Source of the DNA: Hyalangium gracile
GTDB lineage: Bacteria; Myxococcota; Myxococcia; Myxococcales; Myxococcaceae
NCBI RefSeq assembly: GCF_020103725.1
Contig: NZ_JAHXBG010000002.1
Coordinates: 620,001-684,000, forward strand
Length of the DNA: 64,000 nt
Reading direction: 5' to 3'
Shown: positions 1,058-18,500 of the stretch, one piece after another
Layout of the letters: each line of letters opens with the position of its first letter
How positions within the stretch are numbered: the first letter of the stretch is position 1
The notes under the pieces: model-generated
Databases searched by the model: none
The model's input: the letters and a program-made list of their open reading frames with translations, nothing else
Told to the model about the DNA's origin: nothing
Program-made: the position numbers and the translations under genes

Positions 1058-1890
1058 GGCCCGTGTTCGGAATCGCCGGCTACGTGCTGCGCGAGGCGGC
1101 GTCGCGCAAGTTCATCATGGCCTTCCTGATCGGCATCACGCTGATCCTGATCGTGCTGTCGATGAGCCTGAAGCTCGAGGTGCTGGACGGAGCGCTGGCC
1201 GCCACGCGGCTGTTCGGCAAGTCGGTGCACACGTCCATCCGAGCGGTGGACGTGGCGCTCCGGCCGCTGTTCCAGGCGTGCTCGTACGTCGTCTTCTATG
1301 GAGGCATCCTCTTCGGCATCGTGGCGTGCTCGGACTTCGCGCCGAGCCTGATGTCGCCGGGGCGCATCGAGCACCTGCTCGCCCTGCCCCTCCAGCGCTG
1401 GCACATCCTGGCGGGCACGTTCCTGGGGGTGATGACGCTGACGCTGTGCGGGGCGCTCTACGGCGCGGGCGGGCTGCTGATCATCTTCGGGGTGAAGACG
1501 GGGTACTGGACGGCGGACCCGCTGATCTCGGCGGCGCTGGCGTGTGGGAGCTTCGCGGCGGTGTACGCGGTGATGCTCACCACGGCCACGCTGGTGCGCA
1601 GCGCGGCGCTGTGCGCGGCGGCGGGCTTCATCACCTTCGTGACCGGCATCATCGCGGGCTACCGCACCTCCATCGCCGGGGTCTTCGAGGAGGGCCCGAG
1701 CCGGCAGATCTTCAAGGGGGTGACGCTGCTGCTGCCCCGGCTGTCATCGCTGGCGGATGCGGCCGCGGATCTGGCGACCTCGCAGCCGCTGACGGTGAGC
1801 TCGCTGCAGACGCTGGTGGGCGGCGTGGTGGTGTTCGGCCTGGGAGTGCTCGCGGTGGGCTTCTGGCTCTTCGACGGAAAGGACTACTGA
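1054..1890 (+). CDS. ABC transporter permease
   Basis: A 278-residue integral membrane protein with about six hydrophobic segments: one near residues 20-40, then a helix pair around 70-130 and three more before the C-terminus. It matches the ABC-2 type permease pattern that partners stand-alone ATPases such as the preceding gene. The ATG at 1054 overlaps the ATPase stop by four bases, and its own TGA overlaps the next ATG by one base. Longer reading in this frame (from 427) is a shadow of the ATPase gene, so the start at 1054 is clear. The transported compound is unknown. Confidence 0.88.
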   Translation: MRPVFGIAGYVLREAASRKFIMAFLIGITLILIVLSMSLKLEVLDGALAATRLFGKSVHTSIRAVDVALRPLFQACSYVVFYGGILFGIVACSDFAPSLMSPGRIEHLLALPLQRWHILAGTFLGVMTLTLCGALYGAGGLLIIFGVKTGYWTADPLISAALACGSFAAVYAVMLTTATLVRSAALCAAAGFITFVTGIIAGYRTSIAGVFEEGPSRQIFKGVTLLLPRLSSLADAAADLATSQPLTVSSLQTLVGGVVVFGLGVLAVGFWLFDGKDY

Positions 1891-3020
1891 TGAACCGGCG
1901 GCGTGGCACATGGCTGGCCTTGGCGGTGGTGCTGCTGGCGGCGGGCGCCTGGCTGATGTTCACCGGAGAGGGCGAGGAGCCGGAGCCCGAGCCGCCCAGG
2001 AAGGTGGTGTTCCCCAACCGGATGCAGAACAACCAGTGGAAGCGGGCCGACCAGCGCAGGACGCAGCTGGTCCCGATGCAGGCGGACGCGGGGGTCGCGG
2101 CCAACGACAAGCCGCGCATGAGAGATCCGCTGCTCGCCGCCCTGCCCCGGGGCAAGGGCCACTCGGCGGTGATCATCGAGGCCAATGCGCTGCGCTACTC
2201 GCCCATTGGCGAGCTGCTGCTGGACTGCCTGATGCGCGACGGAGGCAAGCGGCTGGACGACTTCCGCAAGGCCAGCGGCGTGGATCCGCTCCAGGATCTG
2301 GACCGGCTGGCCATCACGGATGACGGAGTGATGTTCTCGGGAGACTTCAGCAAGGCCCGCTTCGGAGAGATGTTCCAGGAGCGCGTGGCCGCGGACTACG
2401 GCCCCAACGCGCGGGTGTACGAGCCGGGCGCGGTCATCCTGCAGCTGGCGGATGGAGGCGTGCGGCGCGGCCGGGACGACGCGGCGTTCGGCACCTGGAA
2501 CAACCAGATGCTGGTGGTGGGCGACAACCCGGAGTCGGTGAAGTCGGTGCTCGATCGGGTGCACGGCGGCGGCTCGGACGAGCCTCCCGTCCTGTCCGAA
2601 GAGGCCACGTACGGAGAGATGTACGGGGTGCTGTCGGTGGAGCAGATCGCGCGGCTGCTGCCCCCGGACCAGGCGGAGCTGGCTCAGCGCCTGAGGGAGG
2701 CGGCCGAGACCATGGAGTTCCACATGGACGCGAGCTCGGACATGGCGCTGGTGGCGCACATCAATGGTGCGGATGAGGGCAAGGTGACGGATCTGGGCAA
2801 GTCGCTGGGCGCGGCGCTGTCGGTGGCGCGGCTCAAGGCGCAGGCGGAGGGCGAAAAGGAGCTGGCGCAGATGCTGGACTTCGCGAAGGTCCAGCCGTAC
2901 GGCTCGTCGTTCAAGCTGGAGCTGGCCGTGCCGCTCGAGGTCCTCAAGGAGCGCCTGGCGTTCTGCCGGGATGAGCGCAAGGCCTCGGAAGGCACGCAGG
3001 GCGCGGAGGTGAAGCCATGA
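1890..3020 (+). CDS. Exported/membrane-anchored protein of unknown function in the ABC operon
   Basis: A 376-residue protein starting with a short basic stretch and a hydrophobic segment (about residues 5-25), then an acidic proline-rich linker (EEPEPEPP). This is the layout of a periplasmic protein held by an N-terminal anchor. The rest is soluble, alternating strands and helices, with no motif I recognise. Its ATG shares a base with the permease stop and its stop overlaps the nucleotidase start, so it is made together with the transporter. It may be an accessory or substrate-handling subunit; that is inference from position only. Confidence 0.75.
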   Translation: MNRRRGTWLALAVVLLAAGAWLMFTGEGEEPEPEPPRKVVFPNRMQNNQWKRADQRRTQLVPMQADAGVAANDKPRMRDPLLAALPRGKGHSAVIIEANALRYSPIGELLLDCLMRDGGKRLDDFRKASGVDPLQDLDRLAITDDGVMFSGDFSKARFGEMFQERVAADYGPNARVYEPGAVILQLADGGVRRGRDDAAFGTWNNQMLVVGDNPESVKSVLDRVHGGGSDEPPVLSEEATYGEMYGVLSVEQIARLLPPDQAELAQRLREAAETMEFHMDASSDMALVAHINGADEGKVTDLGKSLGAALSVARLKAQAEGEKELAQMLDFAKVQPYGSSFKLELAVPLEVLKERLAFCRDERKASEGTQGAEVKP

Positions 3021-3646
3021 AGCGCTCGGAGATGGTGGCGCTCGTCGACATGGACGGGACGCTCTGCGACTACGAGGGCGCGATGGCGCGGGAGCTAGAG
3101 AAGCTCCGCAGCCCGCACGAGCCGCCCTTGAAGATGCGGGAGAGCCACTCGGACCCCTGGCTGCGCGAGCGCGTGGAGCTCATCCGGCGTCAGCCGGGCT
3201 GGTGGGCGGGGCTGGAGCGGCTGAAGCTGGGGTTCGACGTGCTGGAGGAATTGCGCGCGCTGGAGTTCGAGCTCCACATCCTCACCAAGGGGCCGGTGCA
3301 GGCGACGAACTCGTGGGCGGAGAAGCTCCAGTGGTGCCAGCGGCACGTGCCGGACGCGCGGGTGACGGTGACGATGGACAAGGGGCTGGTCTACGGGAAG
3401 GTGCTCGTGGACGACTGGCCCGAGTACATCCAGCGCTGGCTCACCTGGCGGCCGAGGGGGCTGGTGATCATCCCCGCGCAGCCGTGGAACGAGGACTTCC
3501 ACCACCCGAACGCGCTCCGCTACAACGGGAAGAACCTGGACGCCGTGAGGGCGAGCCTCCGAGCCGTCAAGGAGCGGGCCCTCACCCTGCCCCCGGAGCC
3601 GGAGCTCCCTGCGCCGGAGGATGAGGAGCCGGCGTCGGAGGGTTGA
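3017..3646 (+). CDS. HAD-family 5'(3')-deoxyribonucleotidase-like phosphatase
   Basis: The HAD motif I DMDGT is at residues 11-15 (nucleophile D11, acid/base D13), just after a hydrophobic strand, and a later LVDDWP matches the acidic motif IV of the 5' nucleotidase, deoxy (NT5C) family. The 209-residue length and the small helical cap fit that family, which dephosphorylates (deoxy)nucleoside monophosphates in the cytoplasm. The C-terminal 20 residues are Pro/Glu-rich. The ATG overlaps the stop of the upstream exported protein (ATGA), making it the fourth gene of the operon. The exact substrate is unknown. Confidence 0.75.
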   Translation: MKRSEMVALVDMDGTLCDYEGAMARELEKLRSPHEPPLKMRESHSDPWLRERVELIRRQPGWWAGLERLKLGFDVLEELRALEFELHILTKGPVQATNSWAEKLQWCQRHVPDARVTVTMDKGLVYGKVLVDDWPEYIQRWLTWRPRGLVIIPAQPWNEDFHHPNALRYNGKNLDAVRASLRAVKERALTLPPEPELPAPEDEEPASEG

Positions 3647-3653
3647 GCGTCTC

Positions 3654-4151
3654 ATGTCTCTGTCCACCCTCTGCCAGCGCTGCGGGCTGTGCTGCGACGG
3701 GAACCTCTTCTCGACGGTGCCGCTGCGCCGGACCGAGATCGAGCCCATGGAGCGCCTGGGGCTGGCGGTGATCAAGCGGGCGGATGGCACCTCGCCCGGG
3801 TTCACGCAGCACTGCAGCGCGCTGGAGGGACGGAGCTGCAAGGTGTACGCGGAGCGCCCCGAGGCCTGCCGCCGCTACCGCTGCCTGCTGGCGACGGCCC
3901 TGGCGGAGGGAGAGGTGTCGCTGGAGGAGGCGCTGAAGGTGGTGGACGAGGCCCACGCGCACATCCACGCCGTGGAGGCCCTGCTGCCTCCGGCCCGAGC
4001 CGACTCGCCGCGCGCCGTGCTCCAGCGGGTGCGCCAGGAGGATCTCCCGGAGCACGGGGGGCCACTGCCGCCCCGGACGCAGGAGGTCTGGAATCAGGCG
4101 GAGAGCCACCTGGACCGCCACTTCCGCGGGCGCCACCGCCGAGGCGGCTGA
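3654..4151 (+). CDS. YkgJ-family cysteine cluster protein
   Basis: A 165-residue cytoplasmic protein with an N-terminal cysteine cluster (C7, C10, C13, C14) and further cysteines in the GRSC, EAC and YRC motifs. This is the pattern of the YkgJ/CxxCxxCC family, which probably binds zinc or an Fe-S cluster. The middle is acidic and helical; the C-terminus is basic. I chose the ATG at 3654, seven bases after the nucleotidase stop; an in-frame ATG at 3621 would overlap that gene and adds only basic residues. It ends the ABC operon. The function of this family is not established. Confidence 0.8.
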   Translation: MSLSTLCQRCGLCCDGNLFSTVPLRRTEIEPMERLGLAVIKRADGTSPGFTQHCSALEGRSCKVYAERPEACRRYRCLLATALAEGEVSLEEALKVVDEAHAHIHAVEALLPPARADSPRAVLQRVRQEDLPEHGGPLPPRTQEVWNQAESHLDRHFRGRHRRGG

Positions 4152-4172
4152 GCCTCCAGGGAACGCGCGGGC

Positions 4173-4799
4173 TCAAGGCTCCACGCGGGAGCCCTGGTCC
4201 ACACCGGAGAGCTGTTTCCACTGAGCGAAGTCGCGCGTCTCCTGGGCTCGGCCTTGAACAGACCTCCGGCCTCGTAGCGGTTCGCTTCCATCCGGAGCCC
4301 GGGCCGCTGCCGTCCCAGCCGGATGAGCTTCTCGGTGCGGATGACGTTGTTGCGCACGAGCAGATCGCGACTGGGAGCGCCGTTGGTCCCGAGCCCGAGC
4401 ATCATCCCGTAGCCCTGGGTGTCCTCGATGGTGTTGCCCTCGAGCTGGACCTGGTTGGCGTTCTCGACGCGGATGCCGGCCCCGTCGCTCCCACCCGCGG
4501 TGGAGATGTCTCGGATGCGGTTTCCCTTCACGACGATCTCGGTGGGGTTGGCGCCGTGGGTGACGCCGCCCACCGCGATGCCCTTGCCGGCCTTGGAGAT
4601 GTCGTTGTCCTCGATGCGGACCTCCTGGGCGGAGAGGTGGACGACGACGGCCTCTCCCGAGGAGGTGGCGCTCTTGCGGAAGTCGGACATGCGGTTGCGG
4701 GATGGACTCGACGCCAGAGCCACATCCGCCGAGAGCGATCGCCAGGCTGGCTGTTCCCAGCACCCACCAGAACCTGCTGCGCATGGGCTTCCTCCCCAT
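4173..4799 (-). pseudogene. Decayed right-handed beta-helix lipoprotein
   Basis: One reading frame gives a lipoprotein signal (MRSRFWW..., lipobox LGGC) from about 4784 or 4799. It then loses sense near 4705, where a second frame takes over with repeated turns of a parallel beta-helix (VRIEDNDIS, IVVKGNRIRD, VQLEGNTIED, LLVRNNVI). Near 4245 the sense returns to the first frame for a C-terminus containing DFAQWKQLSG, typical of this family. The intact protein would be only about 200 residues, shorter than usual. I therefore read it as a remnant with two frameshifts and probably an internal deletion; sequencing error at both places is the alternative. Confidence 0.55.
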
Positions 4800-4937
4800 G
4801 GGCCGAGCGAGCCCGCCCATGTATCCATGGGAGGTGGAGTGGCCCGCGGCGGTCTGTGATGACCTGGCGCGCCTCCAGGGGACAACTGGCTCGCTTAAGG
4901 TGGAAACCGTCACGGAATCCACGGAGGAGGACTGGAG

Positions 4938-6653
4938 ATGATGAGACGGCCCCTGGTCGCAGCGCTTGCTCTGCTGGTCATCTCTCTTATTACGGCTTGC
5001 ACCGCGCCATCCGCAGCCAGACGACCAGGCGGGCAATGGCAGTTAGCGGGCCATGGCTCGAACACCCTGGCCGGGGACTCATCGAGCGACGCATCTCCTT
5101 CCAACGAACCGCCATGGCGTGAGTCGGATGCCAGCGCCTGGGAACCGGCTCGGGAGCGCGAAGCCGAGCGAGCGTGGGAGATCTTGTGGAGCGTGGCAGG
5201 CCCCACGAATGTCCCTGGAGCCGAATGGACGTTCCACTTCTGGTCGTCTGGAGGGGCACTTACGCTGCTGTCGGTGCACCGCACCAAGGCAGGCGAAGGG
5301 CGGTCAAGCCCCTTCTCCCGAGAAACATTCCTCCCCCACCTCACAGGTGAACTCCCTACCCTCATCGGCACGACTGCCCGCGAAGTCACGTTCATTCTCC
5401 AACGGCAGGAGACTGGATGGAGCGCTGACCTCTCTACCTCTCTGGAGAAAGAGCCACCTCTCCACGCGAGGACGATCCCCTCCATGCGAGATGGAAGCGC
5501 CGCGGAGACGCACCGGCAGGTGCTGGATGCTTCTCGCCGTATCGCGCGGCTGATGTCCGTCCCTCGCGGTGGCCGCGCTGCACTCGTCGCTCGGGTGTCC
5601 CTGGATGACGCTCGAATTGTCGACTGGGAACCCGAGAGGTTGCACGCGTCCGGAGATGGCCTGGCCCTGTCCGCCAGCGAGAGCGAGGTCCCTCTCCTCG
5701 TCGCGGCATTGCTGCCATTCACGCGCGGTTTTGGGGAGCGGACGCTGTCCCTCTCCATGAAGGGCGAACACCGGAATGGAGAATCTCTCCCACGCTGGAG
5801 CCTCGAGGAGGCACGAGTCCTGGAACCGGCCCCTCCTCCATCAAGCGTCGCGGACATCCACCAGGAGTATCGGGCGATCCACGAGTCCATCCTCACACAG
5901 TTCCAGGAGCAGACACGTGAGTACGCCGTCCTTGCCGCGGGCTTCACCCTGGAGCAGCTCGCCTACAGCCTCGTGGGAGGACTGGCGCTCAAGGGAGGCT
6001 GGGTGTTGGTGGGAAAGGGAGCCCCCACGGTCCTCTCCTTCCTCTCCAAGGGTGGAAGGGGCGCGGTGCTCTGGTTCCGCAACCTCCTGGTGCGCACCCC
6101 TACGGCGGATCGGGAGCTGCTCGTCCGGCTGTGGATGAAGGCTGAGACCCAGGGCCTCAAGGCACTCACCGAGGTGGAGAAACAAGAGCTCCGAGCCCTC
6201 ATGATCCGCATGGAGAAGGTTCTGGAGACCCCGCTGGACGACACGGCGAAGAACAGGCTCTGGGCATGGGCTCGCGAGGAGTACTTCAGCCTGTACCACC
6301 CCCAGTTCGCGAAGCTCCTGGGCGAGGCGGGCCTGAGAGCCTACGAGGTGCATCACCTCTACCCGATGCGATATGCCCACCTCTTCCCGAAGCTGGACAT
6401 CAATGGCAGGGCGAACCTCGTGGGACTCCATGTGGACGTGCATCGCAGCGTCAACGCGGTCTGGCTCTCACTGGGCCGAGCCGCGCAGCGAATGAAGCCA
6501 CAGGACGTCACCCAGGTCGTCGAGACCATCAATCACCACTACAGCCGCTGGTTCCACAAGGTGTACAACCCAGCCGATGCCGCTGCTCTGGCCAACGCCC
6601 AGCGAGCAGCACTCGGTGAAGTGGCCGCGCTCAAGGCTTTGCTCGTTCCGTGA
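4938..6653 (+). CDS. Lipoprotein with C-terminal HNH nuclease-like toxin domain
   Basis: A 571-residue protein with a lipoprotein signal peptide (cysteine at about 21 after LITA), a long unrecognised middle, a hydrophobic glycine-rich stretch near residues 345-375, and a C-terminal HNH/treble-clef-like motif. That motif reads YEVHHLYP (H472, H473), then N493 and H498/H502 in NLVGLHVDVH. Such domains are common tips of polymorphic toxins. A possible ribosome site (GGAGGACTGGAG) precedes the ATG. The next gene encodes a SUKH-like protein, a known immunity type for HNH toxins. I infer a surface-delivered nuclease toxin, perhaps like the SitA lipoprotein toxins of Myxococcus; activity is not shown. 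Confidence 0.7.
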   Translation: MMRRPLVAALALLVISLITACTAPSAARRPGGQWQLAGHGSNTLAGDSSSDASPSNEPPWRESDASAWEPAREREAERAWEILWSVAGPTNVPGAEWTFHFWSSGGALTLLSVHRTKAGEGRSSPFSRETFLPHLTGELPTLIGTTAREVTFILQRQETGWSADLSTSLEKEPPLHARTIPSMRDGSAAETHRQVLDASRRIARLMSVPRGGRAALVARVSLDDARIVDWEPERLHASGDGLALSASESEVPLLVAALLPFTRGFGERTLSLSMKGEHRNGESLPRWSLEEARVLEPAPPPSSVADIHQEYRAIHESILTQFQEQTREYAVLAAGFTLEQLAYSLVGGLALKGGWVLVGKGAPTVLSFLSKGGRGAVLWFRNLLVRTPTADRELLVRLWMKAETQGLKALTEVEKQELRALMIRMEKVLETPLDDTAKNRLWAWAREEYFSLYHPQFAKLLGEAGLRAYEVHHLYPMRYAHLFPKLDINGRANLVGLHVDVHRSVNAVWLSLGRAAQRMKPQDVTQVVETINHHYSRWFHKVYNPADAAALANAQRAALGEVAALKALLVP

Positions 6654-6665
6654 GGCAGGACCCGC

Positions 6666-7313
6666 ATGCTCTCCGAGACTCCGCTCCCTGGGCTCGACCG
6701 ACTCATTGCCGTCTGCCAGCAGCAGTCGCTTCCGCTGAGCCGCTCCCTTCCCGTGGCAAATGCACCCAAGGCAGGAGACGCTGTCCTGGGAGAGCCCTTC
6801 GATCCCCAGCTCGCGGCCGTCTACCACCGCTTCGGTGCCGCCGACTTCGGTCCTCTGTCCCTCTACGGCCCTGGCTCCGAGTCGCTCGACCTCATTCCAT
6901 GGAACGAGCGGCTGAGGGAACTGGATGCGGTGCAGTTCCGCTCCTCACTCATCTTCGGCAGGAAGACGGGATTCTCCCTCTACTTCGCCACTGTCCCCAG
7001 GCTGGCCACCCCTGAGGGGCTCCAGCCCGTCGTCTATATCGAGGCGGTGGATGCTCTCACCTGCGTTCCCGTGGCCTCCAGCGTCGACCGCTTCTTCGAC
7101 ACCTACTCCCGCTATCTCGAGCTCATGGTGGTGGACCCGGAGTACATCGCCAGCCGCCTCCCGGAGAGCGTCTTCCCGTGGAGCGTGCCGCACCTCATAG
7201 CCCACGACGAACCCCTGGTTGCCCAGGTGCGCGCGGGGGCCTTCGACTTCCTGACGCCTGACGAGGATCTTCCCCACCCGTGGGTTCAGAAGCTACGAAC
7301 CGCATCCCCATAG
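6666..7313 (+). CDS. SUKH (SMI1/KNR4)-like protein, probable immunity partner
   Basis: A 215-residue cytoplasmic protein with no signal peptide. The segment around residues 45-75 (DPQLAAVYHRFG...DFGPLSLYGP) resembles the SUKH core, where a helix is followed by a glycine turn and strands, and the C-terminal third (SVPHLIAHDEP) is compatible. SUKH proteins are widespread immunity proteins for HNH and related nuclease toxins. The gene starts 12 bases after the HNH lipoprotein with only a weak ribosome site (GGCAGGA), implying co-expression. The family call is from pattern memory and is less certain than the toxin call. Confidence 0.55.
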   Translation: MLSETPLPGLDRLIAVCQQQSLPLSRSLPVANAPKAGDAVLGEPFDPQLAAVYHRFGAADFGPLSLYGPGSESLDLIPWNERLRELDAVQFRSSLIFGRKTGFSLYFATVPRLATPEGLQPVVYIEAVDALTCVPVASSVDRFFDTYSRYLELMVVDPEYIASRLPESVFPWSVPHLIAHDEPLVAQVRAGAFDFLTPDEDLPHPWVQKLRTASP

Positions 7314-7336
7314 CCGAATGTCCCTGACGTACCGGC

Positions 7337-8608
7337 TCACTCCTTGGGCCTGGCAACCACGACATTGCCTCCCGCCCGGCTGCCCACGGCCGTGGGCACT
7401 CCCAGCAACAGCGCGGGCTCTCCGGGCAATTGGTGGCTCGCCTCGGCTCGCATCAGCGGCAAGCCCTGAGGCTGACGCTGCAGCCATGCGATGAGCTTCT
7501 CGCGCACCAGGCAGCGCAGATCGAACGCCTTGCCCGCATCCGAGGCGCTCACCAGCGCCCTCATCAACATCGTGCGCTCGGAGAGGCCCGTCACCTGGAG
7601 CCCCTGCACCTTCCCGTCCCAGAGCCCCTGGGACTCCTGCTCGAGGATGCGCTGGAGCTCCGCGCGCATCGCCGGCACGTCCGTGCGGAAGTCCACGTAG
7701 ATCTCCGCCGTGCCCAGGATCTCCGGCGACACCTTGCTCCAGTTCTGGAAGGGCTTGTCCAGGAAGTGGCTCATCGGCACCACCAGCCGCCGCAGATCCC
7801 ACACCTTCACCACCACGTACGTCAGGGTGATCTCCTCGATCCATCCCCACTCGTTCTCCACGATGACGGTGTCTCCAATCCGCACCGGCTGCGTGATGGA
7901 CAGCTGGATGCCCGCCAGCAGCGTGGAGATGGACTTCTGCGCCGCCAGGCCGATGACCAGCCCCGCGATGCCCGCCGACGCCAGCAGCGACACCCCCACG
8001 TTGCGCACCACCTCGAACTGGAGCAGCAGCAGCGACGCCGCGACCAGCACCACCGCGACATCCGCGATACGCCGGAGCACGGCCAGCTGCGTGCGAATCC
8101 CGCGAGCACGGCCGACATCCTCACCACTCCCCCCCTGGGCCACCTTCTGCTCCATGAAGAGCGCCGCCAGCCGCAGGAACCGCAGGAGGAACCAGGCCAG
8201 GGTCACGATCGCCACCGACCGGGCCCCGACATCCACCATGTGCTGGGCCGGAGCCGGCAGCAGCAACAGCCGCCCCCCCGCGGCCACCAGCATCACGAAC
8301 AGCAGATGGCGCAGAGGCCCTCGGCCCGCGGCCATGATCTGGTCGTCCCACCCCGCCTTCGTCAGCGCCGTGGCGCGCCCCACCACGCGAAGCGCGAGCC
8401 CCTCCAGGACACGCCCGACCAGCAGGCTCACACCCACGGCCAGCGCCAGCCCCAGCCACTGCCACAGCTCCAGCACCCAGAAGGGCCGAGCCAGGAGGAA
8501 GTGAGGCAGCACCGAGTCCCCCGGGGCAGCAACAGCCCCGGCCCCCTCGCTGAGCGCGAGGGCCGGCAGGGACGACAGCAACGACATGAGCGTGAGGGAT
8601 CGGCGCAT
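7337..8608 (-). CDS. MscS-family mechanosensitive channel-like protein
   Basis: A 423-residue membrane protein: signal-like N-terminus, about four hydrophobic helices, then the MscS pore and beta domains. These are seen as LLASAGIAGLVIGLAAQ (glycine/alanine-rich pore helix) followed by the typical IQPVRIGDTVIVE-like strand and a VVVKVWDLRRLVVP segment. The family releases solutes under osmotic stress or signals membrane tension. I chose the ATG at 8608 because it begins the signal peptide; a longer frame to 8716 runs into an AT-rich promoter-like zone. An alternative ATG lies at 8587. It converges on the SUKH-like gene. Confidence 0.88.
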   Translation of the reverse strand: MRRSLTLMSLLSSLPALALSEGAGAVAAPGDSVLPHFLLARPFWVLELWQWLGLALAVGVSLLVGRVLEGLALRVVGRATALTKAGWDDQIMAAGRGPLRHLLFVMLVAAGGRLLLLPAPAQHMVDVGARSVAIVTLAWFLLRFLRLAALFMEQKVAQGGSGEDVGRARGIRTQLAVLRRIADVAVVLVAASLLLLQFEVVRNVGVSLLASAGIAGLVIGLAAQKSISTLLAGIQLSITQPVRIGDTVIVENEWGWIEEITLTYVVVKVWDLRRLVVPMSHFLDKPFQNWSKVSPEILGTAEIYVDFRTDVPAMRAELQRILEQESQGLWDGKVQGLQVTGLSERTMLMRALVSASDAGKAFDLRCLVREKLIAWLQRQPQGLPLMRAEASHQLPGEPALLLGVPTAVGSRAGGNVVVARPKE

Positions 8609-8701
8609 TCTCGGCTTCCGGCAGATGACCGCACGGTGCCCCAGCGACTCCTGGAGGGACTCCCCCTCGACGAACCGACAGAGCACCGCACATCCAATTA
8701 T

Positions 8702-8713
8702 TTTGAGCTCAAA
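8702..8713. promoter_or_regulatory. Palindromic operator-like site upstream of the MscS gene
   Basis: The 12-base perfect palindrome TTTGAGCTCAAA sits in an AT-rich patch (about 8695-8720), about 95 bases upstream of the MscS-type start. The surroundings are otherwise very GC-rich. A near copy (TTTGCACTCAAA) lies at 10180-10191, in front of the small winged-helix-like gene. I infer a shared regulator site; no promoter hexamers are certain. Confidence 0.35.
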
Positions 8714-8756
8714 CAATATAGCTTCCAGGGCTCCGGGTCCAGCCCCCCCTCCGCGC

Positions 8757-9962
8757 TCAGAGCGGCTGACGGCCCTCGTCGCAGCGCTTCTTGCAGAGCG
8801 CCGCAGGCAGGCACGTCCCCGTACAGGGGCACATCACCTGCCCCAGGCCACACTCCGAGGAAGGGCTCGTGCGGAGACACCTCCCGTTGCGGCAGTCGAA
8901 GCCCGCACCACACGAGGTGCCGCAGCGGCCGCAGTTCGCATCGCTGGTCTGGAGGTTGACGCAGGCGCCGCCACACAGCGTCAGCCCCTGGGGGCACTGG
9001 CACGTGCCTGCCTGGCAGAGCTGGCCCGCTCCGCAGCGCCTGCCGCAGCTGCCGCAGTTCTGCTCGTCCGCCCGGGTGTCGACGCACTGACTGCCGCAGA
9101 CCGTCAACGTGCCCGGGCACTGGCAGCGGCCGTTGCGGCAGACCCGGTCCGGACCACACGCCTCTCCACACCTCCCGCAGTTCCGGCTGTCCGTCTCCGT
9201 GTCGACGCACTGGCCCCCGCACAGCGTCCCTCCCCCAGGGCAGCTGGTGCGCACGCACTGCCCCGCGCGACAGTCGAACTCCGCGCCGCAGGCGTTCCCA
9301 CAGCGGCCGCAGTTCTCGTCGCTGCTCTCGAGGCTGACACAGGCACCGCCGCAGAGCGCCAGGCCCTGCGTGCACTGGCAGATGCCCGCCTGGCAGCGCT
9401 GATCCGGACCACAGGTGCCGCCGCAGCGGCCACAGTTCTGGCCATCGACCTGGAGATCCACGCACTCGCCCGCGCACGAGCTCTGCCCCACCGGACACCC
9501 TGCGGGCGGAGGCTCGCCGTCACGCAGGGCGAGGAACGCCGCCACGCCGCCAGCGACCACCACGCCGACTCCCACCGCGACGAGCCACCACGGAGAGCCC
9601 CTGGCAGGCGCCGCGACAGGTGCACTCACCGACACGGAGACCGCAGGACCTTCCGCGAAGCGCTCGTCCGGCACGTCGTTGTCGGCCACCACCAGGCTGA
9701 AGGTGCGTGGGCCCGGCGCCGTCCCCGCCGGCACCTGGATCTCCACCGTGAACACCTCCGTGCTCCCGGGCGGCATGTCGCGCAGCACGGAGCCCCGCAG
9801 GCTCAGCCACTCGCCCGGCAGAGCGGACGAAGGCACGAGGCTCGCCTTCGCCCGCAGGAGACCGTCCGTCACGTTGGAGACCGTGAAGGACACTTCGCCT
9901 CGCCCGCTCGGCTCCAGGGTGATCGTGGCAGCGGGAGTGGTGATGGCGAACACTCGCGGCAT
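8757..9962 (-). CDS. Membrane protein with Cys-rich repeats
   Basis: A 401-residue protein in three parts. Residues 1 to about 115 form an Ig-like/COG1470-type beta domain (cytosolic by topology). A single membrane helix follows at about 125-150. The outer part has five tandem repeats of about 40 residues with the pattern CGGxCVxxxxDxxNCGRCGxxCG, and a shorter sixth Cys-rich tail. Such repeats recur in myxobacterial surface proteins and are probably disulfide-bonded. The ATG at 9962 is clear. It lies between the MscS gene and the winged-helix-like gene. A role in envelope sensing or adhesion is possible but not shown. Confidence 0.7.
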   Translation of the reverse strand: MPRVFAITTPAATITLEPSGRGEVSFTVSNVTDGLLRAKASLVPSSALPGEWLSLRGSVLRDMPPGSTEVFTVEIQVPAGTAPGPRTFSLVVADNDVPDERFAEGPAVSVSVSAPVAAPARGSPWWLVAVGVGVVVAGGVAAFLALRDGEPPPAGCPVGQSSCAGECVDLQVDGQNCGRCGGTCGPDQRCQAGICQCTQGLALCGGACVSLESSDENCGRCGNACGAEFDCRAGQCVRTSCPGGGTLCGGQCVDTETDSRNCGRCGEACGPDRVCRNGRCQCPGTLTVCGSQCVDTRADEQNCGSCGRRCGAGQLCQAGTCQCPQGLTLCGGACVNLQTSDANCGRCGTSCGAGFDCRNGRCLRTSPSSECGLGQVMCPCTGTCLPAALCKKRCDEGRQPL

Positions 9963-10179
9963 GGCCGGCGCTCCTCCTGGCTGAACCGAACCAGCAAGTT
10001 AGGGAGCGCCACTCAGAGTAGAAGCTGGCCCCTGGCGCGCCGTGGACTGTCGGAACCGCCCCTGCCCCAGAGGGCAGGCGCTCCGGTGCCGCCGTCCAGG
10101 AGCGCCGCTCCCCCGGGAGGCCTCCTGCCAAGCGAGTCCGGGCCGCGATGTCGCGTGAAGAACTCTGAGCGGAAATTAG

Positions 10180-10191
10180 TTTGCACTCAAA
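10180..10191. promoter_or_regulatory. Operator-like half-palindrome before the winged-helix gene
   Basis: TTTGCACTCAAA differs at two positions from the palindrome at 8702-8713 and lies in the AT-rich stretch 10170-10210. It overlaps a possible -35 (TTGCAC at 10181) with TAAATA at 10202 as a possible -10. If these are real, transcription would start almost at the GTG at 10217, giving a nearly leaderless message. Confidence 0.3.
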
Positions 10192-10216
10192 TCATTGAGG
10201 ATAAATAGGTAGGCAC

Positions 10217-10600
10217 GTGACTGACGCCGCTCTTTCCCAGCGGGTTCAGCGCTTCCTCATGTCGCACATCGACTCCATCGAGAAGCTGGAGGTCCTCCTC
10301 CTGCTTCGGAACGTGACGGATCGGGAGTGGACGGCATCGACGGTGGCGCTGGAGCTCCGCATCACAGAAGCCTCCGCCGCCGCCCGGCTGGCGGACCTCA
10401 CGGCGAGCCGTCTGCTCGTCAGCAGCAGCGGCTCGCCCGAGGTGTACCGCTTCAGCCCAGCCTCCGCCGAGGACACGCGCTCGGTCGCGGAGTTGGCCAT
10501 GACCTACTCGGAGCGGCGAGTGAGCGTCATCACCTTCATCTTCTCGAGGCCCCAGGAGCGGGTGAAGGGCTTCGCGGACGCCTTCCTCCTCAAGAAGTGA
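10217..10600 (+). CDS. Small winged-helix-like protein
   Basis: A 127-residue cytoplasmic protein with a helix-rich N-terminus (SIEKLEVLLLLR), then a segment resembling a winged helix (WTASTVALELRITEASAAARLADLTASRLL followed by a beta turn), and a C-terminal helix. This architecture occurs in small uncharacterised proteobacterial regulators. The start is GTG at 10217, with no good ribosome site; an internal ATG at 10259 would remove the first helix. It is divergent from the Cys-rich gene, and the operator-like site in front of it suggests self-control together with the MscS gene. Function unknown. Confidence 0.65.
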   Translation: MTDAALSQRVQRFLMSHIDSIEKLEVLLLLRNVTDREWTASTVALELRITEASAAARLADLTASRLLVSSSGSPEVYRFSPASAEDTRSVAELAMTYSERRVSVITFIFSRPQERVKGFADAFLLKK

Positions 10601-10621
10601 GGCGAGCCCCTGGCCGAGGAG

Positions 10622-13600
10622 TCACCGTGACGGAACGGCCCGGAGATAGGGGAAGGCTGGCGTCGTGAGCCGCAGCCGAGCGCGCTGGACGTTGCCGAAG
10701 TGGGGCGCAATCCCGAGCTCGGCGAAGACCTCGCCCATGACCCGGCTCCGATCGAAGCGCTCATAGAGGGCCTTCACGGAGTCCTCCGGCACGGAGGCCG
10801 GGTGGACGATCGACTTCATCGAGAGCCGGAAGCGCCCGTCCTGCCCCCGGATGTAGCTCTGCTGCATCGTGCTGGCGCGCTCGAAGGTCGTCCGCAGAAA
10901 CTCGTCGTTGAGCTGCTGCTCCGACTTTCGCGGGGTCCGCGCATCCTGGCGGCGCAGGTAGAACCAGAGCATGGGCGACTTCTCGTGCATCAGCAGGTTC
11001 GACACGCGCCACCGGTCCAGGTCCGGCATGGCGTCGTAGACGCGCTGGATGTCCGGGTCGGCGAACGCCATCTCCCAGAAGATGCTCTCGGCGCGGTACT
11101 TCGCATAGAGGCTGATGCAGGGCCGCGCCAGCTCCAGGTTGCACCCGGCCGCCAGCTCGGCCAGCGAGTCCACCGTGTAGCTGTGCTCCACCGGGTTGAT
11201 GAGCAGATCCGCGAAGTCCGACTCCTCCCAGTCCCGGTGGCGGCTGATGAAGCGCGCCATCGTGTTGTCGATGGCGAACCCGGCCGCCAGCCGCTTCGCC
11301 ACCGGATAGTCGTTGGCCGGCAGCCCCTTCGTCATGATGCGGATCGCCTTCTGGAAGGCGCTCGTGATGGTCCGGTGGAACCGGTTGTAGACGAGCAGCT
11401 CCATCAGCCCGTCCCGCTTGAGGGCCCGCGAGAGCCGCCCCAGCGCGTGGGCCGGCTCGTAGGTGTGGTGGATCACCCCCGTGCACACGACGAAGTCGAA
11501 CTGCTCCTCGTACGTCGCGTCGTTGATGCTCTCCAGCCGGAGCTCGAGGTTCTTGACGCCCAGCGCGGCGGCATTGGCCGCGCAGATCTCGATCGACTTC
11601 GTGGACAGATCCGTCCCCAGCACCCGCGCCTTCGGGAAGAGCAGCGCGGTGAGCAGCGCCTGGTTCGTTCCGCAGCCCGCCACCCAGATGGACGCATCCC
11701 GGGGCACGGCCGTGTGGCTGAAGTCCCCCACCTCCTGGCTCACCATGATCCGCTCGAACTCGGGATCCTGGAGCGTGTCGAACTTGGACGAGTTCCACGG
11801 CCAGGGGAACCGGCTGTAGAACGCGCCGACCTTCTCGTCCACGGACGTGATGGACTCCGCCAGGACGAGGTTCTCCTCGTCGCTCTTCTTCGCGGCCGCT
11901 CCGAGCGCGGGCGTCGCGTCACGAGGGAGCTCGGGCTCGGGAATGAAGCGAGGAAGAGGCTCGGCCTCGGTGCTCGCGCCCGTCGCCAGGCGGATCTGCT
12001 CGCTGCCCCGGGTCCGCTCGATGCTTCGAGCCAGCGCCGCGATGGTCCGGTTCTCGAAGATGCTGCGCATGTTCAGGTCCACCCCGAGCGCCTCGCGGAT
12101 CCTCAGGATGATCTGGTTGGCCAGCAGCGAGTGGCCGCCGATCTCGAAGAAGTCGTCGTCGACGCCGATCTCCGCGAGGCCGAGCGATCCGCGCCAGATG
12201 GACGCCAGCTCCGTCTCCGTGGGGGTGCTGGGCGCGGCGGACGCGCTCCGCATGCGGCCCTTCACCTCCTCGAGTCGAGGCAGCGCCTTCGTGTCGATCT
12301 TCCCGTTGGCGGTGAGCGGCAGGCGCGGGAGGTGGACGAAGTACTGGGGGATGATCTCCTGGCTCAGCATCGTCGCCATGAAGGCGCGCAGCACGGACGA
12401 GTCGATCGCATGCTCCGCCGCGTAATAGGCCACGAGCGCGCTGGAGCCAGCATCCGTGCAGAGCAGGACCACGCTGTCATGAACCGCCAGGTGCCGGTTG
12501 AGGAGGCTCTTCAGCCCCTCGAGCTCGACACGGTGGCCGTTGAACTTGATCTGGGTGTCGTTGCGGCCCTCGAACGCCAGGACACTCCCGGGCAGCCAGC
12601 GCGCGAGATCGCCCGTCCGGTACACCACCTCGCCCTTCACGAAGGGGCTGGGAATGAAGCGCTCCTGGGTCATCCCCGGGTCGCCCAGGTAGCCCAGCGC
12701 CAGGCAGTCGCCGCCCAGGTACAGCTCGCCCGTCACCCCCTCCGCCACCGGGGACATGTAGCCATCCAGCACGTAGGCCTGGGCATTCGGCGCCGGCTGG
12801 CCGATGGGGACGAAGTCCTGGACATCCGTGCCCGGATCGAACCGGTGCACGATGCACCCCACCGTCGCCTCGGTGGGGCCGTACTCGTTGAAGATCTCCA
12901 GGTGGGAGCCGAAGCTCTCCATGGCCCGCAGCGCCAGCCGGGTCTCCAGGCTCTCGCCGCCGACGATGAGCCGCCGCACCTTGCTGCCGGGATGCTTGCG
13001 CGTGACGAGCAGCGACAGGTGGCTCGGGGTGAGCTTCACGATGTCGACGCGATTGTCCTCGATGGCGTCCATGAGCGCCGCCCCCGCCGAGGACCCCGGG
13101 TAGACGATGATCCTCCCGCCCGAGATGAGCGGGACGAAGATCGACGTCACGGTCAGATCGAAGGCCAGCGACGAGTACAGCGGGAAGGTGGCGACCTCGG
13201 AGCCCACGTAGAGCTTCCACGCCCACCACACGTAGGTGGTGAGCGCCCGGTGCGGCACGAGGACTCCCTTCGGACTCCCCGTCGTGCCCGACGTATAGAT
13301 GGCGTAGGCGGCATCCTCCGGGGAGAGAGTGGCCTCCGGCTCCCTGCCCTCCTGGGGCGAGGGCTCGACCTCCGTGGGAGAGATGCACCGCACCGGGAGA
13401 TCACGCAGGGGCTCGCCCAGCGATGGCTCCGTGAGGACGATGGAGGCACCGGAGTTCTCGATGACGAACCGCGTGTAGTGGAGCGGTCGCAGCGGCTCCA
13501 GGGGGACGTAGGCCGCGCCAGCCTCGAGGCACCCGAGGAGCGCGACGATGAGATCCAGCGAAGGGTTGAGGAGGATGCCGACCCGGCTTCCTGGCCCCAC

Positions 13601-13810
13601 CCCCTGCCGCCGAAGCAGGGAGGCCAGCTGGCGAGCCCTGACGGACAGCTCCTCATAGGTGAGGCGCTCCTTGCCGGACTCCACCGCGACCGCCTCGGGA
13701 GTCCGCTGCGCTTGCTTCTCGAAGAGCTTATGAACAGGCTCGGACCTCGGGTAGTCGGCGGTCGTGGGGTTCACATCCACGGGGAAGCGCTGGAGCTCTC
13801 TCTCGGTCAT
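10622..13810 (-). CDS. Stand-alone NRPS: adenylation, carrier protein and methyltransferase
   Basis: A 1062-residue single module. Adenylation domain: A3 YTSGTTGSPKG, A4 AFDLTV, A5 NEYGPTE, A7 YRTGDLARW, A8 GRNDTQIKFNGHRVE, A10 NGKID. Carrier domain: GGHSLL, with the phosphopantetheine serine, near residue 570. C-terminal class I SAM methyltransferase with WVAGCGTNQ as motif I. Hand alignment of the ten specificity residues gives D-L-T-K-I-G-E-V-G-K, one change from the published asparagine code. No condensation, thioesterase or reductase domain is present. The ATG at 13810 precedes MTERELQRFP; longer reading lacks domain content. No other biosynthetic gene lies beside it, so it is an isolated enzyme or works in trans. 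Confidence 0.9.
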   Translation of the reverse strand: MTERELQRFPVDVNPTTADYPRSEPVHKLFEKQAQRTPEAVAVESGKERLTYEELSVRARQLASLLRRQGVGPGSRVGILLNPSLDLIVALLGCLEAGAAYVPLEPLRPLHYTRFVIENSGASIVLTEPSLGEPLRDLPVRCISPTEVEPSPQEGREPEATLSPEDAAYAIYTSGTTGSPKGVLVPHRALTTYVWWAWKLYVGSEVATFPLYSSLAFDLTVTSIFVPLISGGRIIVYPGSSAGAALMDAIEDNRVDIVKLTPSHLSLLVTRKHPGSKVRRLIVGGESLETRLALRAMESFGSHLEIFNEYGPTEATVGCIVHRFDPGTDVQDFVPIGQPAPNAQAYVLDGYMSPVAEGVTGELYLGGDCLALGYLGDPGMTQERFIPSPFVKGEVVYRTGDLARWLPGSVLAFEGRNDTQIKFNGHRVELEGLKSLLNRHLAVHDSVVLLCTDAGSSALVAYYAAEHAIDSSVLRAFMATMLSQEIIPQYFVHLPRLPLTANGKIDTKALPRLEEVKGRMRSASAAPSTPTETELASIWRGSLGLAEIGVDDDFFEIGGHSLLANQIILRIREALGVDLNMRSIFENRTIAALARSIERTRGSEQIRLATGASTEAEPLPRFIPEPELPRDATPALGAAAKKSDEENLVLAESITSVDEKVGAFYSRFPWPWNSSKFDTLQDPEFERIMVSQEVGDFSHTAVPRDASIWVAGCGTNQALLTALLFPKARVLGTDLSTKSIEICAANAAALGVKNLELRLESINDATYEEQFDFVVCTGVIHHTYEPAHALGRLSRALKRDGLMELLVYNRFHRTITSAFQKAIRIMTKGLPANDYPVAKRLAAGFAIDNTMARFISRHRDWEESDFADLLINPVEHSYTVDSLAELAAGCNLELARPCISLYAKYRAESIFWEMAFADPDIQRVYDAMPDLDRWRVSNLLMHEKSPMLWFYLRRQDARTPRKSEQQLNDEFLRTTFERASTMQQSYIRGQDGRFRLSMKSIVHPASVPEDSVKALYERFDRSRVMGEVFAELGIAPHFGNVQRARLRLTTPAFPYLRAVPSR

Positions 13811-13970
13811 CCTGATCTCGGCTTCGTGAGTGACGGACGAAAGATTAAAGCCTTGGGCGCCCCTGTCCCATGGAATCGGAGCCTCGTGGAGGAGCGGAGA
13901 TGACACGGGTCGGCTCTCCCCGGAGTTCGTGGAGGCGGAGTACCGCAAGCACTTCGGGTGAGCCGGGCGC

Positions 13971-14768
13971 TCACTCCACCATGGCGCTCACCTCTTCGGT
14001 GAACGCGTGCTCGTCCTCGGCGTGCACCACCAGCGGCGGCAGCACCGTCAGGTCCGCGCGGCCGCCCTTCACCGCGTGCAGCAGCACCAGCTTCGCGGGG
14101 CGATCGGCCCGCGGGTGCACCATGCGCGCCGTCTTCGGCTCCAGCCGATGCTCCCGGAGCACCGCCGCCAGCTCCGCGAACCTCGCCGCCGGGAACACCA
14201 CGCACAGGCCCCCCTTCGGTGCCAGCAGGTACCTGGCCGCGCGAGCCACATCCGGCAGCGCGCACGCCACCTCGTGCCGCGCGATGGCCTTCTCCATCGT
14301 CAGGCTGCTGCGCCCCGTCGCGCACGCCCGATAGGGCGGATTGCACAGCACGTGGCTGAAGCTGCCCGCCGCGAACTGCCGGTCCACCTGGCGCAGGTCC
14401 CCCTGCACCAGCGTCACCTGCTCCTCGCAGCGGTTGAGGTACACGTTGCGCTCGGCCAGCGAGTAGAGCCTCGGCTGGAGCTCCAGCGCGGTGATGTCCT
14501 TGCGCCCCAGCCGCTTCGCCAGCACCAGGGGGATGATGCCGCTGCCGGTGCCCAGGTCCATCAGCCGCCCGCGGTGCGCCCCGCCCTCGTACACCGCGAA
14601 GTGCGCCAGCAGGATGGGATCCAGCGAGAACCGGTAGCCCAGCCGCCGCTGGAGCACCTGCACCTCACCGCCACAGATGGCGTCCAGCGTCTCCCCGGGC
14701 CCCGGGCGCAGCTCCAGCTGCACCTGCCAAGGCCACTCCAGCAGGGGTTTGGAGGACGGGAGCCGCAC
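13971..14768 (-). CDS. trmN6: tRNA1(Val) (adenine37-N6)-methyltransferase-like protein
   Basis: A 265-residue Rossmann methyltransferase. The SAM motif LMDLGTGSGIIPL is near residues 68-80 and the catalytic NPPY motif near residue 140, the signature of N6-adenine methylation. The preceding LGYRFSLDPILLAHF segment is typical of the TrmN6/YfiC family (COG4123), which modifies A37 of tRNA-Val. The family call is firm; the precise tRNA target is inferred. It is transcribed with the DUF1015 gene upstream on the same strand (gap 9 bases). Confidence 0.8.
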   Translation of the reverse strand: MRLPSSKPLLEWPWQVQLELRPGPGETLDAICGGEVQVLQRRLGYRFSLDPILLAHFAVYEGGAHRGRLMDLGTGSGIIPLVLAKRLGRKDITALELQPRLYSLAERNVYLNRCEEQVTLVQGDLRQVDRQFAAGSFSHVLCNPPYRACATGRSSLTMEKAIARHEVACALPDVARAARYLLAPKGGLCVVFPAARFAELAAVLREHRLEPKTARMVHPRADRPAKLVLLHAVKGGRADLTVLPPLVVHAEDEHAFTEEVSAMVE

Positions 14769-14777
14769 CTTGAAAAG

Positions 14778-15917
14778 CTAAGCCTCGGGGTCCAGGAACA
14801 GGAGGCCCGCCGGTGGAAGAGGTTCCACTCTCAGCGTTCGCGAGGGCAGCGTCGCGGCAGCCTCCATCACCGCCCGCACCTCCCAGACCGGCGGAGGGTT
14901 GAGGGCAAAGCCTGCCTGGTAGAGCCCCGACTCGACGCCCTGCACCAGTTCCTCCAGCTCCCGCACCGGGAACACCTGCGGGTGCCCCGCCGCCTCCGGC
15001 TCCTGGATGCCCAGCACCGTGCGCAGCACCAGGGCGTTGAGCAGCGCCAGATCCAGGCTCCGCAGCGTCGGGTTGCGCGGCGCCGCCTTCAGGTGCGCCA
15101 GGTCCAGCCCCTGCCGGAACCGGAGGATCTTCCCCCGCCCCTGCGGCATCACCAGCAGCACCGCGTGGTGCCCCGTGATGAGGGTGGCCAGGCGCTCGCG
15201 GGCGGCCCCCAGCCCCCGGGGCGTCGTCAGCGGCTCGTCGAGGTCATAGACGCGTGCGTAGGCCGTGACGAGCTTGAGGAAGGTGTCCTCCTTGAACGTG
15301 TCCACCCCCTTGAGGGCCCGGTGGATGGGCTCGAGCTGGAGCCCTGGATCGGACAGCGGCACCACCGCCGCCAGCGTCGGGTGCTCCTCGTCCAGCGCCG
15401 CCAGCGGGCGCATGGGCGCCTCGTCCAGCACGCCCTGGATGCGCTTGGAGATCGCCGATGGCTCGATGCGTCGCAGCACCACCCGCGAGCCCCGGAACGC
15501 CCCCTGCCACACCACCCCCGCCCGCTCGGCCGCCTCCGCCAGCAGGCCTCGCAGCACGCCGTGATCGTCCGCGGCCAGGGTGACCGCGGGCTCCGCGCAC
15601 CACGAGCGGGGACGGTAGGGATCGTGCTCGAGCGGCAGCGCGGCGTCAGGCCTCAGCGAGCACAGGAGGAAGCGGACCGGAGGCCCGCTCAGCTTCCCCG
15701 CGGGGCCATGCAGCTCCACGACGTAGAGGGCCGGCCGGGGATCGCGCAGGACGGCTCCGGACGCGCGCCACCGGCCCAGCTCGGCGTCCGGGTTGGGCGC
15801 CTCGAGCAGCGGCCGGACGTGCGAGGGCTGAGGCACGCCTCGGGACGAGGGCCCGTCCGCTTCGAGGTGGGTCCCCAGGGTGGACAAGAGAGCAGGAAAC
15901 GGAAGGACTCGAGCCAT
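14778..15917 (-). CDS. DUF1015 family protein
   Basis: A 379-residue cytoplasmic protein matching the DUF1015 (COG4198) family in length and pattern: FLLCSLRPDAALPLEHD in the N-terminal half, LYVVELHGPAG, a central GHHAVLLVM strand and an acidic C-terminal LEELVQGVESG. The family is widespread next to serine-biosynthesis genes, and a SerA-like gene lies two genes upstream on the same strand here. Biochemical function is unknown. The ATG at 15917 begins MARVLPFPALL. It precedes the TrmN6-like gene by 9 bases. Confidence 0.75.
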   Translation of the reverse strand: MARVLPFPALLSTLGTHLEADGPSSRGVPQPSHVRPLLEAPNPDAELGRWRASGAVLRDPRPALYVVELHGPAGKLSGPPVRFLLCSLRPDAALPLEHDPYRPRSWCAEPAVTLAADDHGVLRGLLAEAAERAGVVWQGAFRGSRVVLRRIEPSAISKRIQGVLDEAPMRPLAALDEEHPTLAAVVPLSDPGLQLEPIHRALKGVDTFKEDTFLKLVTAYARVYDLDEPLTTPRGLGAARERLATLITGHHAVLLVMPQGRGKILRFRQGLDLAHLKAAPRNPTLRSLDLALLNALVLRTVLGIQEPEAAGHPQVFPVRELEELVQGVESGLYQAGFALNPPPVWEVRAVMEAAATLPSRTLRVEPLPPAGLLFLDPEA

Positions 15918-17294: not shown

Positions 17295-18500
17295 TCAGGC
17301 GCGTAGCTCGACCAGGTCCACGAAGATGATCTCCTCCGCTCGCGAGCGGATACGCTCCAGCATCTCCTCCGGCGGCCTGGAGTCCAGCTGGATCTTGCAG
17401 CACGCCGCCTGGGCGCCCTCGAAGATGGTGTTCTCGATCTCCTGGGCGTTGATGCCCGCCTGGCGCACGGCGTCCAGCACGTTGGCCAGCACGCCCACCC
17501 GATCGTGGTGGCGCACGATGAGCTGGTAGCGCGCCGGCGTCCTCCCCGCGATGTTCACGCAGTTGGGCACCACGCCCTCGTTGAGGAACCTGTCGACGAG
17601 CCGCACCGTCTCCCGCGCGATGGCGTCCTGCGCCTGCTCCGTGGAGGCGCCGATGTGGTGCGTGCCGTAGACGTGGGGCAGCTTGCCCAGCTCGCTGTGG
17701 AAGGTGGCCTCGCCGCCCTTGGGCTCGTCCGGGAACACGTCCGTGGCCACGGAGATGCGCCCCCGGCGGGCCTCCTCGAGCAGCGCCTCGTTGTCCACCA
17801 CGTCCGCGCGGCTCGTGTTGATGAACAGGGCCCCGTCCGGCAGCGCCGCCAGCACCTGCCGGGAGATCAGCCCCTTCGTCTCGGACGAGGCGGGCACGTG
17901 CACGCTCAGCACGTCGCTCTGGCGGGCCAGGGCCAGCAGGCTCTCCGCCCGCTCGATGCCCAGCGCCTTCGCCCGCTCGGGGGTGAAGGAGCGCGAGTAA
18001 CCCACCACCCGCATCCCGAAGCTCAGCGCCCGCTCGGCCACCGCCGCGCCGATGGCGCCCAGGCCCACGATGCCCAGCGTGCGCCCATAGAGGCCCCGCG
18101 CCTGGGAGAAGCGCTTCTTGTTCCACACGCCCTGGCGCAGCGAGGCCACGTTGTCCGGGATGTGGCGATCCACCGCCAGCATCAGCCCGAACGTCAGCTC
18201 CGCCACCGCGATGGCGTTCTGCCCGGGGCAGTTGGCCACGAACACGCCGTGGGCGCTGGCCGCCTTCACGTCGATGGTGTTCACCCCGGCCCCCGCGCGG
18301 ATGACCAGGGACAGCCCCCTGGCCACCTCGAACACCCTGGCGGGCACCTCCGTGCTGCGCACCACCAGGATGGAGACGTCCCTGGCGGCCTCCGCCAGCG
18401 CGTCGCCCTTGAGCCCGGGCCGGAAGTCGACGGTCAGCCCCAACCCCCGCAGGGAATCGAGGTGGACCTTGGGAAACTCGTCGGCGACCAGGACGCGCAT
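17295..18500 (-). CDS. serA: D-3-phosphoglycerate dehydrogenase-like protein with ACT domain
   Basis: A 401-residue NAD-dependent 2-hydroxyacid dehydrogenase. The dinucleotide fold GIVGLGAIGAAV is at about residues 143-154, the catalytic Arg lies in NTSRADVVD, the Glu in VFPDEP, and the His in THHIG. An ACT domain occupies the last 80 residues (QLIVRHHDRVGVLANVLDAV), the usual site for serine feedback. This supports the first step of serine synthesis from 3-phosphoglycerate. The ATG at 18500 is divergent from the photolyase gene. A different hydroxyacid substrate cannot be excluded. Confidence 0.85.
   Translation of the reverse strand: MRVLVADEFPKVHLDSLRGLGLTVDFRPGLKGDALAEAARDVSILVVRSTEVPARVFEVARGLSLVIRAGAGVNTIDVKAASAHGVFVANCPGQNAIAVAELTFGLMLAVDRHIPDNVASLRQGVWNKKRFSQARGLYGRTLGIVGLGAIGAAVAERALSFGMRVVGYSRSFTPERAKALGIERAESLLALARQSDVLSVHVPASSETKGLISRQVLAALPDGALFINTSRADVVDNEALLEEARRGRISVATDVFPDEPKGGEATFHSELGKLPHVYGTHHIGASTEQAQDAIARETVRLVDRFLNEGVVPNCVNIAGRTPARYQLIVRHHDRVGVLANVLDAVRQAGINAQEIENTIFEGAQAACCKIQLDSRPPEEMLERIRSRAEEIIFVDLVELRA

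Follow-up and report, generated by a model that had tools for sequence, protein, structure and literature searches.

Nonribosomal peptide synthetase (NRPS) enzymes are usually studied as parts of biosynthetic clusters. Proteins made of an adenylation (A) and a peptidyl carrier protein (PCP) domain without a condensation (C) domain are a known kind, and methyltransferases (MTs) linked to a PCP are also known. In the canonical arrangement, an N-MT domain interrupts the A domain between motifs A8 and A9. PCP-MT modules within assembly lines are listed in a published table, and for puwainaphycin, the asparagine module of PuwA, which has an MT, is proposed to make N-methylasparagine (PMC4219810). 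Here, we analyzed a 64,000-nucleotide stretch of the Hyalangium gracile genome (NZ_JAHXBG010000002.1, positions 620,001 to 684,000; hereafter the window), which encodes a 1062-residue protein, P0001, with an A, a PCP, and an MT domain (10622-13810, reverse strand). The asparagine-type module of BamA, from the bacillomycin D system of the iturin family, has the same substrate code (DLTKIGEVGK) and is 41.7% identical to P0001 over query residues 12-594; however, the BamA module is followed by a C domain within a large assembly line, whereas P0001 has neither a C domain nor a next module and carries a C-terminal MT. P0001 is a C-less NRPS-like enzyme, and its gene, which is neither a fragment nor a member of a local cluster, is a real stand-alone gene that has spread by itself. 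Our preferred reading, held tentatively and at somewhat less than even confidence, is that P0001 is a self-contained single-gene enzyme passed between myxobacteria as a lone gene. No description of a lone A-PCP-MT protein, or of this combination as a lone mobile gene, was found in the open-access literature searched.

The P0001 gene runs from an ATG at 13810 to a stop at 10622 without internal stops, and the coordinates, strand, and frame given in an initial annotation of the window were right. A longer TTG start at 13948 is in the list of open reading frames; the ATG at 13810 aligns with the start in four of five copies (this one included). Pfam called AMP-binding (E 1.4e-79), PP-binding (E 8.1e-16), and Methyltransf_31 (E 1.7e-14) in that order and no other family at E 0.001, in agreement with the three domains first proposed. 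The A domain (residues 26-513, 12272-13735; Pfam core 12686-13723) scored 377.9 bits against TIGR01733 (AA-adenyl-dom), above the curated cut-off of 317.4, and has the intact motifs YTSGTTGSPKG, NEYGPTEA, YRTGDLARW, and NGKID. PF13193 (AMP-binding_C) was not called in P0001 at E 0.001 though the NGKID motif is present; the same family was called in three other scanned A domains. The PCP domain (residues 534-595, 12026-12211; PF00550, 58.5 bits versus a cut-off of 20.8) carries the phosphopantetheine serine S561 (12128-12130) in the motif GGHSLL. A linker, delimited by the ortholog alignment (residues 596-690, 11741-12025), leads to the MT (residues 691-1062, 10625-11740), which Pfam and structure searches place among class I S-adenosylmethionine (SAM) methyltransferases of the Rv2067c group, the fold of its last ~90 residues being uncertain; its SAM motif, VAGCGTNQAL, lies at 11654-11683.

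The position of the MT is not that of a canonical NRPS N-MT. Only 78 residues separate FNGHRVEL (residue 423) from ANGKID (residue 501), too few for an inserted MT, and the MT starts after the PCP. PuwA resembles P0001 in combining an asparagine module with an MT, but its MT is probably a canonical N-MT inside the A domain. The annotation had also found no condensation or release domain, and this held: Pfam called no condensation, thioesterase, or reductase family across the whole of P0001 at E 0.001, and a scan of the last 412 residues with the limit relaxed to E 5 matched 12 families, all methyltransferase or MT-like, which also placed the MT. PF00668, the condensation domain, was absent at E 0.001, and only 29 residues stand ahead of the Pfam A domain. 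P0001 is therefore not a complete NRPS elongation module, since a C domain was not found, nor a complete termination module, since no thioesterase, reductase, or terminal C domain was found. We considered a hidden C-terminal condensation or release domain and rejected it because Pfam called none and the structural matches of the predicted MT model have the MT fold: by title, all 50 Foldseek rows and all 50 VIA-align rows listed were methyltransferases or MT-fold proteins, although a fold missing from those lists is still possible for the low-confidence last 130 residues.

We then looked at where the gene occurs. No NRPS- or polyketide synthase-type Pfam domain was present in seven neighboring genes (4938-15917), and none of the other AMP-binding sites in the genome, which has 60 in all, falls within the window. 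The absence of adjacent biosynthetic genes had been noted before; the isolation goes further than that, as four of the five other carriers (three with an intact copy, one with a broken copy) hold the gene in unrelated places. With the MT as query, six of 96 family genomes matched at E 1e-15, and the same six of 195 genomes matched across the phylum at E 1e-20, with at most nine candidates scored per genome. The copies in H. gracile and in genomes G006, G020, G090, and G112 are intact; the G101 copy is broken into pieces with gaps and internal stops. These five intact copies, from three genera, share one layout and measure 1055-1096 residues; full-length identity to P0001 is 83% in G006 and 79% in G020, and MT identity is 88-91%. 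When the whole protein was used in a pattern-based scan of 84,980 species genomes, an approach that reaches close relatives only, one full-length match was found, in Hyalangium versicolor.

Among the five other genomes, only G006 has flanking genes in common with the window. In G020, G090, G112, and G101, for which about 16-20 kb was fetched on each side, the DNA match with the window is the gene only, and the neighbors differ. Homology stops within ~20 bases of both gene ends in G020 and G112; in G090, the same holds at the 3' end, whereas at the 5' end homology stops 67 bases inside the gene. All seven genomes compared have the flanking trmN-like and DUF1015 genes; between these and a YkgJ-like gene, the A-PCP-MT gene is missing from all five of the further genomes of the genus. 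Only 15 bases separate the two sides in G002, and in the other four the gap holds 2.6-5.1 kb of DNA without a match to the window. Window positions 4146-13962, between the YkgJ-like and trmN-like genes, thus form a variable insertion spot, in which the A-PCP-MT gene is one cargo among several.

A broken-off, functionless NRPS module kept by chance might be expected to look much like P0001, in which condensation and release domains are missing, and the G101 copy, with its gaps and stops, is indeed decaying. However, the ratio of nonsynonymous to synonymous substitution rates (dN/dS), calculated over 10 pairs, was well below 1 in every domain (0.25-0.39 in the A domain, 0.10-0.19 in the PCP, and 0.14-0.21 in the MT; 0.25-0.53 in linker residues 601-680). 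All three domains are therefore under constraint, strongest on the PCP and the MT, and the catalytic motifs fall in conserved columns of the five-copy alignment. Neither a pseudogene nor a piece of a larger NRPS fits the size of the five intact copies from three genera or the constraint on them, and both readings were rejected. The dN/dS ratios largely refute the idea of a relic, which we consider very improbable.

The residues that line the A-domain pocket point to asparagine. Mapping by motif gave DLTKIGEVGK at residues 218, 219, 222, 259, 282, 284, 309, 317, 318, and 504, positions that follow the GrsA convention, and this bore out the code read by hand in the annotation. The annotation had called it one step from the known asparagine code: the asparagine type stands, but the distance does not, since an A domain of BamA (bacillomycin D synthetase, on a Bacillus velezensis plasmid) has the identical ten residues. 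BamA loads asparagine. DLTK[IV]GEVGK was also the code of all ten best non-orthologous matches to P0001, and among 27 coded non-orthologous myxobacterial loci (L012-L038) it occurred in 13, with the aspartate-like DLTK[IV]GHVGK in two. Identity of the A-PCP part to those ten matches and to BamA was ~40-43%, so the code is common without close kinship. Because of the identity with the BamA code, asparagine is the likely substrate of the P0001 A domain.

For the MT (METHYLTRANSFERASE), the best match among solved structures was Rv2067c (E 2e-19 by sequence), with Rickettsia PKMT1/2 within the next few rows in both sequence and profile searches. A profile of 11 sequences (A2) matched the Rv2067c structure 8hkr collinearly (E 3.9e-42), pairing profile positions 9-321 with chain residues 12-322 over 313 positions. 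The mean predicted local distance difference test (pLDDT) score of the MT model rose from 34 with two sequences to 61 with 20, after 18 relatives were added; blocks across residues 51-160 of the 20-sequence model scored 76-93, and most of the model past residue 280 scored below 50. Foldseek ranked 8hkr first (E 3.1e-14). VIA-align with 8hkr gave Z 19.3 and a root-mean-square deviation of 3.5 over 222 aligned residues, level with MitM (Z 20.1) and other class I enzymes; the fold therefore shows a class I MT, and the family call rests on sequence, by which we assign P0001 an Rv2067c-type class I methyltransferase. A C-terminal domain of about 100 residues is a further mark of the Rv2067c type; here the sequence match ends at position 321 of 391, and the last ~90 MT residues are unaligned, with low pLDDT. 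Rv2067c is free-standing and dimeric, with catalytic, dimerization, and C-terminal domains (PMC10739865), unlike the P0001 MT, which is fused behind a PCP; 8HKR is also among the structures against which recognition elements of ribosomally synthesized and post-translationally modified peptides (RiPPs) were judged (PMC12710340). The tail of the L063 relative matched PqqD weakly (E 0.024, below the Pfam cut-off). Taken with the Rv2067c and 8HKR papers, this match suggests that the MT tail may be a winged-helix peptide-binding relic.

The settings in which relatives of this MT occur are varied. A plasmid search gave matches in 14 of 72,556 records, and the surroundings of eight of the 14 were read. 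These included TPR-MT fusions in Caulobacter and, by annotation, Azospirillum, and a free MT immediately after a C-A-PCP-thioesterase NRPS on a Streptomyces clavuligerus plasmid. On a plasmid of Streptomyces sp. NBC_00841 (L086), an NRPS of at least 2284 residues in the stretch read (115-6969) ends in a C-A-PCP-MT module with no thioesterase called at E 0.05. As in P0001, an MT of the same broad family directly follows the PCP and no release domain was called; unlike P0001, the Streptomyces NRPS has condensation domains, several modules, and the A-domain code DVFAVAAVYK. On a Pseudanabaena sp. PCC 7367 plasmid (L083, 5809-7017), a free relative, P0003, adjoins cpcA and cpcB. The remaining surroundings had no clear context. 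CpcM is reportedly the asparagine methyltransferase of phycocyanin beta subunits, and from its neighborhood P0003 may be CpcM, a lead only, with 25% identity to the P0001 MT over 284 columns; among the 44 NCBIfam families matched by P0003, none of the 25 listed bears the name CpcM. When the five ortholog MTs were aligned by hhalign with six single sequences, the probability was 99.8 for L063 (291 columns), 98.9 for the Pseudanabaena protein (285 columns), 98.8 for NBC_00841 (142 columns), and 97.9-98.7 for the other three. Two further candidates for the P0001 layout were rejected: Mesorhizobium plasmid H16, whose match extends into query residue 817, has a thioesterase after the PCP, and Bradyrhizobium H19 ends in a thioesterase. 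A viral source of the MT was also rejected, there being no relatives among phage records and none in IMG/VR with a single protein query; a profile search of IMG/VR gave 44 loci at 20-34% identity, mostly over the SAM core, with frames examined in 29 and 18 entered into alignment A3.

The only non-ortholog among the matches listed in the phylum search (32% identity) lies in G020, on contig C11 (L114, 173000-192900), in a peptide cluster with LanB, Lant_dehydr_C, an MvdD-like ATP-grasp, JmjC, radical SAM-SPASM, and a C39 transporter, an unusual RiPP enzyme mix. Since one relative follows a carrier domain, in the Streptomyces NRPS, and another lies in a LanB cluster, both carrier-bound and peptide-bound substrates fit this MT family. 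This cluster, with its LanB, ATP-grasp, and radical SAM genes, also bears on the idea that the MT modifies a protein or peptide, the Asn-PCP part serving to join asparagine either to that target or to some small acceptor, which would make P0001 a modifying enzyme and not a metabolite maker. The nearest solved relatives, among them the protein lysine methyltransferases Rv2067c and Rickettsia PKMT1/2, agree with such a role. However, the substrate of an MT cannot be read from its family, neither a ligase nor a precursor peptide was noticed next to the gene, and the Streptomyces NRPS gives a PCP-fused MT a precedent at the end of an assembly line. We consider this role distinctly improbable.

In the reading that we prefer, a self-contained enzyme encoded by one traveling gene, the A domain, present with its code, would activate L-asparagine with ATP, and asparagine would be loaded onto the PCP arm at S561. 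The C-terminal Rv2067c-type MT would then methylate the carrier-bound asparagine, at its alpha-amine or its side-chain amide. Release, the least certain step, would take place without a dedicated domain, through a type II thioesterase of the host, hydrolysis, or cyclization to an aminosuccinimide, in which the side-chain amide attacks the thioester. Since selection acts on every domain and the gene is kept in differing surroundings, we prefer a self-contained route over a module that feeds one particular assembly line. Because the gene spreads without neighbors, a partner, if one is needed, would more probably be a generic function of the host, such as a phosphopantetheinyl transferase or thioesterase, than an assembly line inherited with it. 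We think it unlikely that the whole pathway travels in this one gene, with asparagine loaded, methylated while bound, and leaving as methylated aminosuccinimide or free methyl-asparagine in spite of the missing condensation and release domains; should the link to the CpcM-like relative prove right, methylation would possibly fall on the side-chain amide.

The age of the copies bears on how the gene moved. Between H. gracile and the two g23 copies, G112 and G090, the synonymous divergence (dS) of the A and MT domains was 0.35-0.43, whereas the yardstick genes trmN and DUF1015 gave 0.49-0.70; the lower divergence of the gene suggests that it was transferred between genera. Against G006, the gene (0.39-0.43) and the yardsticks (0.37-0.43) agreed, as for vertical descent. 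The GC content of the gene (0.679) is near that of the window (0.690), and composition therefore gives no hint of foreign origin. A SerA-like gene (17295-18500) was dropped as a yardstick, having a whole-length match in only two of seven genomes.

Several points weigh against our reading. The dS yardstick consists of two genes only, and the G090 trmN value comes from 68 codons. In G020, the dS of the gene (A 0.45, MT 0.40) was like that of the yardsticks (0.35 and 0.44), so age alone shows no transfer there, and only the different place does. No transposase or integrase family was called by Pfam in nine neighboring genes of the G006, G020, G090, G112, and G101 copies (PfkB, a beta-lactamase fold, two GNAT, PepSY_TM, an NHL protein, an APH-type kinase, and two without a family), and flanking repeats were limited to weak, chance-like pairs in three genomes, the best in the window being 74% complementary over 27 nucleotides; a mobile element as the carrier was rejected on these grounds. 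The MT could also act on something other than a PCP-bound residue, its closest solved relative being a protein lysine methyltransferase. Finally, the five intact-copy genomes all encode many condensation domains (36, 57, and 18 in three of them and at least 88 in each of the other two), and a trans partner elsewhere in the genome is possible.

With so many C domains in every intact-copy genome, methylated asparaginyl-S-PCP might be passed on to a C domain of an NRPS assembly line whose genes lie elsewhere in the genome. The N-terminus of P0001 (NPTTADYPRSEPVHKLFE), which resembles the linker found after a C domain, is consistent with this, since it makes descent of the gene from an elongation module probable. 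On the other hand, no linked partner was found at the loci read, the neighborhoods are unlike, and G020 has 18 condensation domains only. Such a supply in trans is in our view a serious but rather unlikely alternative. The annotation had suggested that P0001 could make a methylated aminoacyl thioester for use in trans, which might serve, for example, in tagging or as a small signal; service to a dedicated assembly line is weakened, as no partner travels with the gene.

Other genes around the copies were also noted. A GNAT gene adjoins the copy in G020 (L072, 3941-4501) and in G090 (L073, 15622-16554), on opposite sides and with unequal length, which may be chance, GNAT genes being common. In the window, a lipoprotein-like gene (4938-6653) with, by eye, a His-rich nuclease-like C-terminus (HHLYP...H) is followed by a small gene (6666-7313). 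Neither has a Pfam match, both are also in G006, and from their sequences they look like a toxin-immunity pair. The gene at 8757-9962 encodes a Cys-rich repeat protein, assigned to the MXAN_6577 type (NF041328) and with a further match to the STIG1 family of plants.

A lone NRPS module is easily taken for a leftover, and the P0001 gene shows the opposite marks, being intact under selection in several genera and in unlike places. It gives the Rv2067c-like MT group, found in NRPS, LanB, TPR, and phycocyanin settings, a likely substrate, and a single purified protein would suffice to assay it. If P0001 makes its product alone, it would be a minimal test case for the methylation and release of a carrier-bound amino acid without the usual domains.

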